A DNA stretch of 64,000 bases from positions 185,521 to 249,520 of the forward strand of contig NZ_KI543237.1 of assembly GCF_000496835.1 (NCBI RefSeq), in the 5' to 3' direction. Source of the DNA: Thalassobacillus devorans MSP14 (GTDB taxonomy: Bacteria > Bacillota > Bacilli > Bacillales > Halobacillaceae). This document shows, piece after piece, positions 4,067-54,285 of this stretch; the stretch's first letter is position 1, and each line of letters starts with the position of its first letter. The notes below the pieces were generated by a model. The model saw only the letters and a list, made by a program, of their open reading frames with translations. It was not told the origin of the DNA and searched no databases. Position numbers and translations under genes: made by a program.

Positions 4067-4541
4067 ATGGCCGGATTATGGAAGACTTGATTTCGAGATG
4101 TTTGGTCGAGTTTAGGGGCGTTGGGGAAGGATTCGCTTTCCGCGGGGAAGCCGGCAAGCCTCCTCGAGCTAAAGCTCTGCGGGGTCTTGCCAGTCTATCC
4201 TTTCCCGCAGGAGTCTCAACCTTCCCCTACGCCCCTTGCCACATGAGATTATCGAAATCGCTTTTGAATTTCCTTACCTGAATTTGAGAAAAACCCTGTC
4301 TCTATGCCGAATTGGTCATATTTTCTGCTTCGTAAGCACACCATTCTTGATAGGTGTTTCGAGATTCTTACAATCATATGGCGGCCGGGAAAACGGTGAG
4401 ACTCCTGTGGGATGAACATGAGCGGTGAGATCCCGCAAGGCGAAGCCTGAGGAAGCTCACCACATGCCCACGGAAAGCGATCCGTTTTCCCAGCCGCCAT
4501 AATCGCTACCTATAATCTCGAAACTGAGTCTTCAGGAAAAG
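4067..4541 (+). repeat. Dispersed palindromic element, copy A (MITE-like)
   Basis: About 475 bp of intergenic DNA, near-identical to 53811-54285 (4 mismatches, no indels). Inner termini are inverted repeats: GAAGACTTGATTTCGAGAT at 4081-4099 and the complement of GAAGACTCAGTTTCGAGAT at 4515-4533. Two large palindromic modules lie inside, at about 4117-4240 and 4378-4505, in opposite orientation, each with a central hairpin (GAGCTAAAGCTC at 4166-4177; AGGCGAAGCCT at 4438-4448). Similarity to the other copies continues more weakly outward to about 4036. It has no convincing gene; short open frames here are by-products of the palindromes. No transposase is present. Confidence 0.85.
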
Positions 4542-4580
4542 CTTTAACTGAAGTTCAATAATGATGTTTAGCATGACCAC

Positions 4581-4612
4581 AAAAAAATGCACAGGCGGCT
4601 AGGCACCTGTGC
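4581..4612 (-). terminator. Terminator after trxB
   Basis: Stem GCACAGG (4589-4595) with CCTGTGC (4606-4612), followed on the minus strand by a run of seven T (4581-4587). It lies about 140 nt past the trxB stop. The bases between (4613-4754) show no gene. Confidence 0.8.
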
Positions 4613-4754
4613 TTAATAGATCTATCTATTAAAAGGGGGTCAATTATTAATAATAGTGTACCCCACAATTGTTTCATGCGTGTTACAGGAGAATTAAGAT
4701 GCAATTACTATTTTTAATACCCTGTATACACGCCTGCACATCAACCATTACAGC

Positions 4755-5705
4755 TTATTTATTGGCAACTTTCAATTCTTCCATCAAGTTTTCGATATAA
4801 TGCTGTGCAGATTGAGCAGCGATACTGCCATCGCCGGTTGCAGTTACAATTTGCCGCAATGTTTTTTCACGGATATCTCCAGCTGCAAAAATTCCAGGAA
4901 TCTTTGTTTCCATATTATCATCGGTTGGAATATATCCTTGCTCATTTGTAATGCCAAGGCTGGCGAATGGTTCGCTTAGAGGAATCATTCCGATATAGAT
5001 GAACACCCCATCTGTATCGAATTCGTACTCTTCTTCTGTTTTTTTGTTATAAAGCGTGACACTTCCTACTTTTCCATCCTTTTCATTGATGGATTTCAGC
5101 ACAGTATCCCACACAAATTCCACTTTTTCGTTATCAAATGCACGCTGTTGCAAAATCGGCTGCGCCCTCAGTTCATCACGACGGTGCACAATGGTCACTT
5201 TGCTTGCGAATCGAGTGAGGTAAACACCTTCTTCAACAGCAGAGTCCCCGCCGCCGATTACGACAAGCTCTTTATCGCGGAAAAACGCACCATCACATAC
5301 AGCACAATAGGATACTCCGCGTCCGCCCAGTTCTTTTTCACCGGGTACGCCGATTTCCTTATATTTAGCACCAGTTCCTATGATTACAGCGCGTGCTTTA
5401 TATTCTTTATTGCCTGCTACAACGGTTTTATATTCTTTTCCATCTATGATTTCTTTGATATCGCCATAGGCATACTCAGCGCCAAATTTCTTCGCATGTT
5501 CAAACATTTTGTTAGAAAGATCCGGCCCAAGGATACTTTCATAGCCCGGATAGTTCTCTACATCTTCTGTATTCGCCATCTGACCGCCCGGGATTCCCCG
5601 CTCAATCATCAGCGTATCTAAATTCGCACGTGAAGTGTAAACGGCAGCTGTCATACCAGCCGGTCCTGCACCTGCGATGATTACATCATAAATATGCTCT
5701 TCCAT
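4755..5705 (-). CDS. trxB: Thioredoxin reductase
   Basis: NADPH-dependent flavoenzyme that reduces thioredoxin, cytoplasmic homodimer. The 316 residues match the family. FAD-binding GAGPAG is at 12-17, the redox-active CAVC at 134-137, and the NADPH-binding GGGDSA at 151-156. A second FAD contact region (GIFAAGD) lies near the C-terminus. AGGGGG lies ten bases upstream of the ATG. It forms its own unit with the TPR gene upstream, as trxB and yvcD do in B. subtilis. Confidence 0.97.
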
Positions 5706-5838
5706 TTTTATTCAGCCCCCTAATATACATTGACTCGAACTGTCAGTATTCATACTATCATCCTATAAAATTGAGTCTCCTGCGTCTATTAATATGCTCA
5801 CCAGGGTATATGCGGAACGTCATCTCCCCAGAAACACT

Positions 5839-52853: not shown

Positions 52854-52876
52854 AATAACAGCCTCTATTCTTTATT

Positions 52877-53608
52877 CTACCAATACGTCCATGTATCTAA
52901 AATTCCAACGATGATTAATAATATACCAGCAATCCGCTGTACTATAGTACCGACACGGCGGCCTTTTCTTAATAGGTTACCACTTAACCCAAAATAAGCA
53001 ATCAAACCGATGAAGATCAACAGGGGAATGGAAGTGCCTACACCGAAAACCAGGGGCATAATGCTGCCATAAGGTGTCGCTACTACAATTGGCATCAATG
53101 TAAAGAAAAACAACACGAACATGGTCGGACAAAAAGCCAGTGTAAATCCAACCCCCAGGAAAAAGCTGCCCCATGGTGAATGCCGACTCGTTAGGCTTTC
53201 CGGTAATTTAAGTAAGGTCACCGTCTTATTGAATTTAATCAGACCTGATAAGTAGATGCCGATCATTACTAATAAAGGCCCTATCGCTTTTCTCATCCAG
53301 GGAAACATGGCTTGTAAGTTCTGGAAGATGTCCCTGCCGAGCCACCAGAAGATAAATCCAAGTCCTGAGAAAACGATGATTTTCCCAATCATGAACATTC
53401 CAACAGAACCCCATGGTACTTTTTCACGTAGTGATCGATTACCATATATGGTGATGGCGCCAATATTGCCTGTCAATTGACATGGAGCAGCTGCACCTAC
53501 AAGTCCAAGCACCAGCGTATATAATAACGGCCACTCCTGTACACTGTATGAAAACCGGATAACCGGTTCCATTACCACCCTGCTGACCCAGTTCAAAATC
53601 TCATACAT
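52877..53608 (-). CDS. CcdA/DsbD-family membrane protein
   Basis: Six-helix membrane protein of 243 residues. Two helices carry the conserved cysteine motifs of thiol transporters, APCQLTGN near 40 and FCPTMF near 159, as in CcdA or DsbD gamma. Such proteins move reducing equivalents to the outside; some relatives are linked to copper homeostasis. The start at 53608 (GGGGTGG eight bases upstream) is preferred over the GTG at 53620, which overlaps that site. It heads the operon with the two-component system. Confidence 0.82.
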   Translation of the reverse strand: MYEILNWVSRVVMEPVIRFSYSVQEWPLLYTLVLGLVGAAAPCQLTGNIGAITIYGNRSLREKVPWGSVGMFMIGKIIVFSGLGFIFWWLGRDIFQNLQAMFPWMRKAIGPLLVMIGIYLSGLIKFNKTVTLLKLPESLTSRHSPWGSFFLGVGFTLAFCPTMFVLFFFTLMPIVVATPYGSIMPLVFGVGTSIPLLIFIGLIAYFGLSGNLLRKGRRVGTIVQRIAGILLIIVGILDTWTYW

Positions 53609-53677
53609 TAACGGTACCACCCCTTTTTATGACAGTTTCATATTAGTAGTTAATTTTGCAGAAACCATGCATTTTCC

Positions 53678-53696
53678 TATAAAGGTTTTATAAAGG
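53678..53696 (-). promoter_or_regulatory. Direct repeats upstream of the ccdA-kinase-regulator operon
   Basis: CCTTTATAAAACCTTTATA on the minus strand: two exact 8-bp copies with an 11-bp period, about 70 bp before the ccdA-like start. The spacing suits an OmpR-family regulator acting on its own operon, but the repeat unit differs from that at 47.83 kb. Confidence 0.4.
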
Positions 53697-53810
53697 TAGT
53701 AGCAAAAAAAGATGCCCCATAAATAGTACGGACATCATAGAAATAACCATATATTCTTTAAAAATCAGGCGGTGTATTGTTGATTTCTTACAAGAAACTT
53801 ATTCAATAAA

Positions 53811-54285
53811 ATGGCCGGATTATGGAAGACTTGATTTCGAGATGTTTGGTCGAGTTTAGGGGCGTTGGGGAAGGATTCGCTTTCCGCGGGGAAGCCGGCA
53901 AGCCTCCTCGAGCTAAAGCTCTGCGGGGTCTTGCCAGTCTATCCTTTCCCGCAGGAGTCTCAACCTTCCCCTACGCCCCTTGCCACATGAGATTATCGAA
54001 ATCTCTTTTGAATTTCCTTACCTGAATTTGAGAAAAACCCTGTCTCTATGCCGAATTGGTCATATTTTCTGCTTCAAAAGCACACCATTCTTGATAGGTG
54101 TTTCGAGATTCTTACAATCATATGGCGGCCAGGAAAACGGTGAGACTCCTGTGGGATGAACATGAGCGGTGAGATCCCGCAAGGCGAAGCCTGAGGAAGC
54201 TCACCACATGCCCACGGAAAGCGATCCGTTTTCCCAGCCGCCATAATCGCTACCTATAATCTCGAAACTGAGTCTTCAGGAAAAG
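53811..54285 (+). repeat. Dispersed palindromic element, copy D (MITE-like)
   Basis: Near-identical to 4067-4541 in the same orientation: four substitutions, no indels. Inner terminal inverted repeats at 53825-53843 and 54259-54277. The flanks differ from copy A outside these limits, although a weaker family-like edge (TTGATTTCTTACAAGAAACTTATTC region) continues to about 53778. It occupies most of the 780 bp between the ccdA-like gene and minJ, where no gene is seen. Confidence 0.88.

Follow-up and report, generated by a model that had tools for sequence, protein, structure and literature searches.

Palindromic repeats of Thalassobacillus devorans as probable gene-less members of an integron-like cassette system

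Background

Integrons are the best-known gene-capture platform. Integrons and CALIN (IntI, attI, attC) are organized around an integrase that stands by a primary site, followed by cassettes which mostly lie on one strand, each with a site of its own, and which are shuffled; arrays without an integrase are common. Exchange at attC occurs in the motif GTTRRRY. Gene arrays linked to a recombinase are also found in the recombinase-associated immunity arrays (rAID) of Bacteroidales, and dispersed palindromic intergenic repeats are exemplified by the bcr repeats of Bacillus cereus; both are likened to the present material by description and not by sequence. Passages of one report (PMC9024848) describe integrons as extremely rare in Bacillota, and passages of another (PMC6449649) describe the dif (pdif) modules of Acinetobacter, which are small gene modules bounded by inverted-arm sites with a 6-bp centre.

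The elements considered here come from a 64,000-nucleotide stretch of DNA of T. devorans MSP14, referred to below as the window. The system to which we relate them shares with integrons and CALIN the integrase by a primary site, the following row of mostly one-strand cassettes with their sites, the shuffling and the frequency of arrays without an integrase. It departs from integrons in its integrase, which falls far below the cut-off for integron integrases and above that for the XerA type, in its exchange, which appears to map to a GGGNNN core in sites that do not conform to the GTTRRRY of attC, and in its host, which belongs to Bacillota.

Results and discussion

Structure and distribution of the repeat family

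The initial annotation of the window had reported four palindromic, mobile-looking elements of about 0.5 kb with shared inverted end sequences. The four copies are real: the window holds eight end motifs (at 4081, 4515, 23634, 24089, 38789, 39248, 53825 and 54259), against a mean of 0.13 and a maximum of 2 after shuffling. The arms at both ends of the element also stand, but their role had been missed, as they are arms of a site-specific recombination site that delimits cassettes in related genera. In this site a 19-bp inner arm (ATCTYGAAWYYRAGTCTTC) is separated by a 7-bp spacer from a 6-bp GGGNNN-type core, on whose far side there is a weaker outer arm (TTATTCAAC...), GAAGACT standing for one arm; the window elements carry one such site at each end. 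Element A (4068-4546, plus strand) has its left core at 4068-4073 (TGGCCG), arms at 4081-4099 and 4515-4533, and a right core that is partly deleted near 4541. Element B (23621-24120, minus strand) has cores at 23621-23626 (GCTCCC) and 24115-24120 (CGGCCA) and arms at 23634-23652 and 24089-24107, and element C (38776-39279, minus strand) has cores at 38776-38781 (GCTCCC) and 39274-39279 (CGGCCA) and arms at 38789-38807 and 39248-39266. Element D (53812-54290, plus strand) has cores at 53812-53817 (TGGCCG) and 54285-54290 (GGGAGC) and arms at 53825-53843 and 54259-54277.

Judged by end type, two copies face each way (A and D forward, B and C in reverse), as had been stated; A and D are 99% identical. 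The palindromic internal modules are borne out by the folding of copy D, which forms two long hairpins (z -6.8), and CAG-type arms at both ends, previously ascribed to copy B, are in fact a feature of copy C. Placement between genes holds for all four copies with respect to long ORFs, with the qualification that short ORFs overlap A (119 aa) and C (132 aa). Neither of these matches a Pfam family, in agreement with the reported lack of a transposase in the window copies, and an Rfam scan of the window returned no family.

Beyond the window, the end motif occurs 187 times (94 + 93) at up to three mismatches in the 3.94-Mb genome (G000), against 2 + 0 for the reversed pattern. Head-to-head arm pairs less than 800 bp apart are present in 74 of the 88 loci fetched around motif matches, and 69 of them span 400-690 bp. 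The search for further copies that the annotation had proposed has thereby uncovered a large family. Some of its elements or sites lie near contig ends or a run of N (L148, L175, L088); repeats of this kind probably break assemblies, so that the copy counts are to be taken as lower bounds. Across the order, the exact CAG-type motif was found in 33 of 397 genomes: 15 of the 17 genomes of the same family have it, their sites numbering as many as 168, and it also occurs in 18 of the 380 outside the family, at one to four sites each. All five genomes of the genus gave matches to the element, those in G004 being limited to 10 weak ones, and the arm is absent from an 80-kb syntenic stretch of G004. 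Another, distinct repeat is also present in the window (AAGCGCAAGCGCCTTG..., 21527-21803); it measures about 270 bp and has many copies in the four relatives from the genus.

Longer arm-to-arm pairs were considered as autonomous copies and rejected on their content. A 1.7-kb pair (L105, G000:C2:29865-31565) consists of an element into which an IS3-type transposase pair (94 + 279 aa) has been inserted, and a 2.4-kb pair (L092, G000:C1:1067978-1070396) has a group II intron maturase-like ORF of 433 aa after the element's left part, both assignments being made from reading the proteins; a 2.2-kb pair is a small cassette array. A relationship to REP elements, which the annotation had also entertained, is not supported. 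The family shares with REP/RAYT systems its palindromic, dispersed and intergenic nature, but its units measure about 0.58 kb and have no RAYT linkage: the single RAYT-like (Y1_Tnp) gene found (195 aa; L149, G000:C2:542925-546254) has no arm within 1.3 kb, and was rejected as a mobiliser.

Mobility of the family in Thalassobacillus

Comparison with the syntenic stretches of four relatives showed that the sites of elements A and C are empty in G002, G003 and G004, that of B in G004 and that of D in G003; counterparts of A and B exist in some relatives. There is also an unoccupied place in the window itself (15561-15619), at which G002 and G003 have an element. As the empty sites vary among relatives, the positions of the elements are not fixed, an outcome that speaks against a fixed RNA gene, which the annotation had named as the alternative should homologues always occupy the same syntenic sites.

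In an alignment of 74 copies, conservation reaches GGCTCTGTTAAAC..GTTGATTTT at the left and an inverted GGCTCTGTTAAATCTCAGTGTTGATTTTACAG at the right, so that the arms, which had been taken for the element ends, lie about 45-60 bp inside the conserved sequence. Terminal inverted repeats (TIRs, GGCTCTGTTAAA...) are recognisable at both ends in 26 of the 74 copies and bound non-coding units of about 0.58 kb. The flanks of these 26 copies agree best at a length of 8 bp, where 3.92 of 8 positions are identical, against a shuffled mean of 2.87 and a top value of 3.77 in 2000 shuffles (z 4.3, n=26). The TIR-bounded unit of element C (38741-39330), for example, is flanked by the target duplications AAAATAAA at 38733-38740 and 39331-39338; this duplication is perfect with the ends set by eye, and placement by the fixed consensus (L112) gives 4/8 identical positions. 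Judged by its pattern, an 8-bp duplication beside TIRs is a signature of DDE-type transposition, and the copies that combine the two indicate that the family has transposed in Thalassobacillus. A search for a coding parent, with the left TIR as query, recovered seven places in two of the five genus genomes, all of them within arm-bearing elements, and none in the six other genomes; no transposase-coding copy was found either among these seven places or in the six further genomes.

The comparison with MITEs made in the annotation therefore survives in part. This is a dispersed, non-coding mobile family of about 0.58-kb units with empty sites and, in part of the copies, TIRs and 8-bp duplications; unlike MITEs, it has two recombination sites, whose arms are its end motifs, and two large hairpins, and its parent transposon was not found. 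The family could be a plain MITE, that is, a non-autonomous DDE transposon with the TIR GGCTCTGTTAAA and 8-bp duplications in which the recombination sites merely travel along and play no part. The TIRs and the duplication are indeed present, no coding copy was found, and the empty sites in Thalassobacillus lack the entire TIR unit, as plain transposition predicts, with A and C missing as entire units in relatives. Against this, both TIRs can be recognised in only 26 of 74 copies, both arms and cores are kept at either end, and the left TIR was not found (at up to three mismatches) in Halobacillus G334 despite its 168 exact arm sites, the elements of that genome showing instead a core-bounded insertion (see below). 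We accordingly regard the plain MITE as unlikely.

We also looked for TIR units not occupied by an arm-bounded element. One such search gave two places (control, 0), of which one is distinct and lies inside a cassette array, another returned mostly occupied ends again, and a further one gave 73 candidates (control, 41), of which only the known L316 was convincing. The 2.05 Mb covered yielded no unoccupied TIR unit, and the nesting of the arm-bounded element in the TIR unit is thus unproved.

Cassette arrays and the site of exchange

In Halobacillus the same motif stands in rows, in a single orientation, separating small unrelated genes. A 60-bp site model trained on eight array regions gave 135 matches in their 514 kb, each head being counted twice among the 135, and none in the reversed sequence; applied to 1.118 Mb of array and head loci, with some overlap among them, it gave 419 sites and again none in reverse. 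In the eight arrays, 94 of the 119 ORFs of at least 80 aa lie on the strand of the sites and 25 on the opposite one. Ten array proteins were compared with Pfam; three of them scored above a cut-off (one with a beta-lactamase fold, one GNAT acetyltransferase and one APH-like kinase) and six were without a family; the variety of these matches sets the arrays apart from rAID. In three array loci, Rfam recognised a TPP riboswitch only. One small array is retained in the T. devorans MSP14 genome itself (L187, G000:C1:597892-600200), comprising three GGGGGC sites and a head whose core diverges (GATGCA).

The same cassette can be found in more than one array, beside other neighbours. We collected 15 cassette pairs in which homology ends at both sites (14 distinct; three share one cassette). 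At the left site, identity is 0.42 in the spacer (0.48 for unrelated sites) and 0.81 after the core, and at the right site it is 0.72 in the spacer and 0.44 after the core (0.47 for unrelated sites). As placed by these identities, the switch from homology to foreign sequence falls within the 6-bp core, and a gene plus its site appears to move as a unit, in the manner of an integron cassette.

The entry of elements into sites could be read in two of eight empty-site comparisons, the other six being too diverged. In both, an element of Halobacillus G334 is set against an unoccupied place in G403: for the element in L275, the place reads ...TTATTAAAGAATA-GGGC-TTATGTTCAAC... (pair L275/L294), and for that in L276 it reads GTTATTCAACAATT-GGGTGC-TTATGTAT (pair L276/L316). 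The weak-core-weak form of these empty sites suggests that the outer arms belong to the target, and that insertion (or its reversal) takes place at the core. Insertion at the core in turn predicts a circle junction of the form arm-GGGCAG-arm, the same as that of the head.

The head and its integrase

The head is a symmetric site, arm-N7-GGGCAG-N7-arm. Its pattern was found in 61 stretches of the genome collection, all in Halobacillus, Thalassobacillus, Sediminibacillus, Jeotgalibacillus, Pseudalkalibacillus or Alkalihalobacillus, and with other loci included 66 distinct heads were examined. The heads are polar. Thirty-four have 2 kb or more on each side; downstream of 25 of these, same-orientation sites occur within 5 kb (69 in all), and upstream there is none. 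Sites of opposite orientation number three (2 and 1). Among 65 unfiltered heads, eight have a same-orientation site upstream, some of these sites being other heads.

Of the 65 heads for which 700 bp or more of upstream sequence was available, four have a tyrosine recombinase of about 280 aa that ends 94-117 bp upstream of the head; within 1.3 kb, such an integrase is absent at the other 61. The four loci are L225, L231 (95% identical to L225), L264 (98%, truncated at the edge of the locus) and L324 (84%), the last having been chosen through its PF00589 match. In these four loci a primary site lies beside the integrase gene, as in an integron. The catalytic residues align with those of XerD. 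The integrase scores 102.5 bits against TIGR02249 (integron integrase), below the cut-off of 265, and 225.6 bits against NF040815 (XerA type, 'tyrosine recombinase/integron integrase'), above the cut-off of 220. By the IntI test the system is not classed as an integron, and 'integron-like' describes its apparent mode of working. The T. devorans MSP14 genome has three PF00589 matches, and this integrase is not among them. Some heads (L207, L231, L252, L262) have phage-type integrases upstream, which were set aside as distant relatives; a conserved ORF of 154-182 aa likewise lies upstream there, as if a genomic island had used the same place.

These loci also bear on the notion that the host XerC/XerD mobilise the sites, much as they do dif modules, with the 280-aa recombinase being incidental. 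A 6-bp core between inverted arms is the architecture of dif as described in passages of PMC6449649, and H. locisalis (G151) has three arrays with only two PF00589 matches, whose lengths (300 and 334 aa) are those of XerC/XerD. However, a dedicated integrase adjoins four heads, the heads are polar, and the arms are much longer than those of XerC/XerD sites (11-6-11 bp). Moreover, array sites are unidirectional and direct, whereas the same passages (PMC6449649) give dif modules inverse flanking sites. On these grounds, which are drawn from the integrase, the arms and the arrangement of the sites, we hold mobilisation by the host Xer proteins to be quite improbable.

Relatives on plasmids and in viruses

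Relatives of the integrase were detected in 82 plasmid records (E <= 1e-20), and among the 15 listed are those of Bacillaceae and Planococcaceae at 53-63% identity. The plasmid CP053689.1 (L360, 115827-140663), which is labelled Arthrobacter citreus, has a Bacillaceae-like integrase followed by small genes on the strand opposite to it. This locus contains 24 palindromic sites (control, 0) built as CTTATTCAACTAA-core-TTAGTTGAATAAG, with a different core sequence and with arms that resemble the outer arm of the window elements. Two other plasmids examined have three and one such sites, against one and one in the control, and the dif-like pattern does not fit the Halobacillus sites. In viral contigs the exact arm was not found; among 29 viral loci with relatives of the integrase, three have a dif-like site (four in total), against four in the reversed control.

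Origin of the window elements

We favour, with a probability of roughly 70%, the reading that the elements of the window belong to an integron-like cassette system, as members with two sites and no gene, and that a transposase later spread them. The recombinase would bind the inverted arms, the element ends would be joined into a circle junction arm-GGG|NNN-arm of head-like form, and strand exchange with the target would take place inside the core. In Thalassobacillus, the arm-bounded element may then have become part of a TIR-bounded unit, which a DDE-type transposase would have multiplied with 8-bp duplications, and the element would now be decaying in a genome without the integrase. As a counterpoint to this scheme, simple exchange at the head should move the head's right arm downstream, yet heads remain first.

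A reading of the arrays as conventional gene clusters, in which a terminator or regulatory sequence is repeated and homologous recombination brings about the exchange, is highly improbable. Inspection does show a hairpin and T-run after several sites, but the switch falls in the 6-bp core and not across the longer 19-bp arm, elements also enter targets that lack the arm, and the polar head has the integrase in four loci.

Conclusion

An integron-like gene-capture system with its own integrase and cassette arrays in related salt-loving bacteria is apparently undescribed: a search of the open-access literature, with subscription journals and preprints outside its scope, found no description of such a system. 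Beyond the reading of the window elements as gene-less cassettes, the chances are slightly better than even that they belong to a separate integron-like class native to Bacillota. This class would combine a XerA-type integrase, a symmetric GGGCAG head and GGGNNN-core cassettes, all carried chromosomally in Halobacillus and Sediminibacillus, and at least one plasmid would bear a cousin with another core. The gene-less cassettes of the class, with their two sites, would now be high-copy repeats in some genomes, in Thalassobacillus by way of a TIR transposon. If true, this would point to more than one origin of cassette capture and account for the rows of small, unrelated genes in halophilic Bacillaceae, and it would reveal a route from a cassette site to a high-copy genomic repeat.
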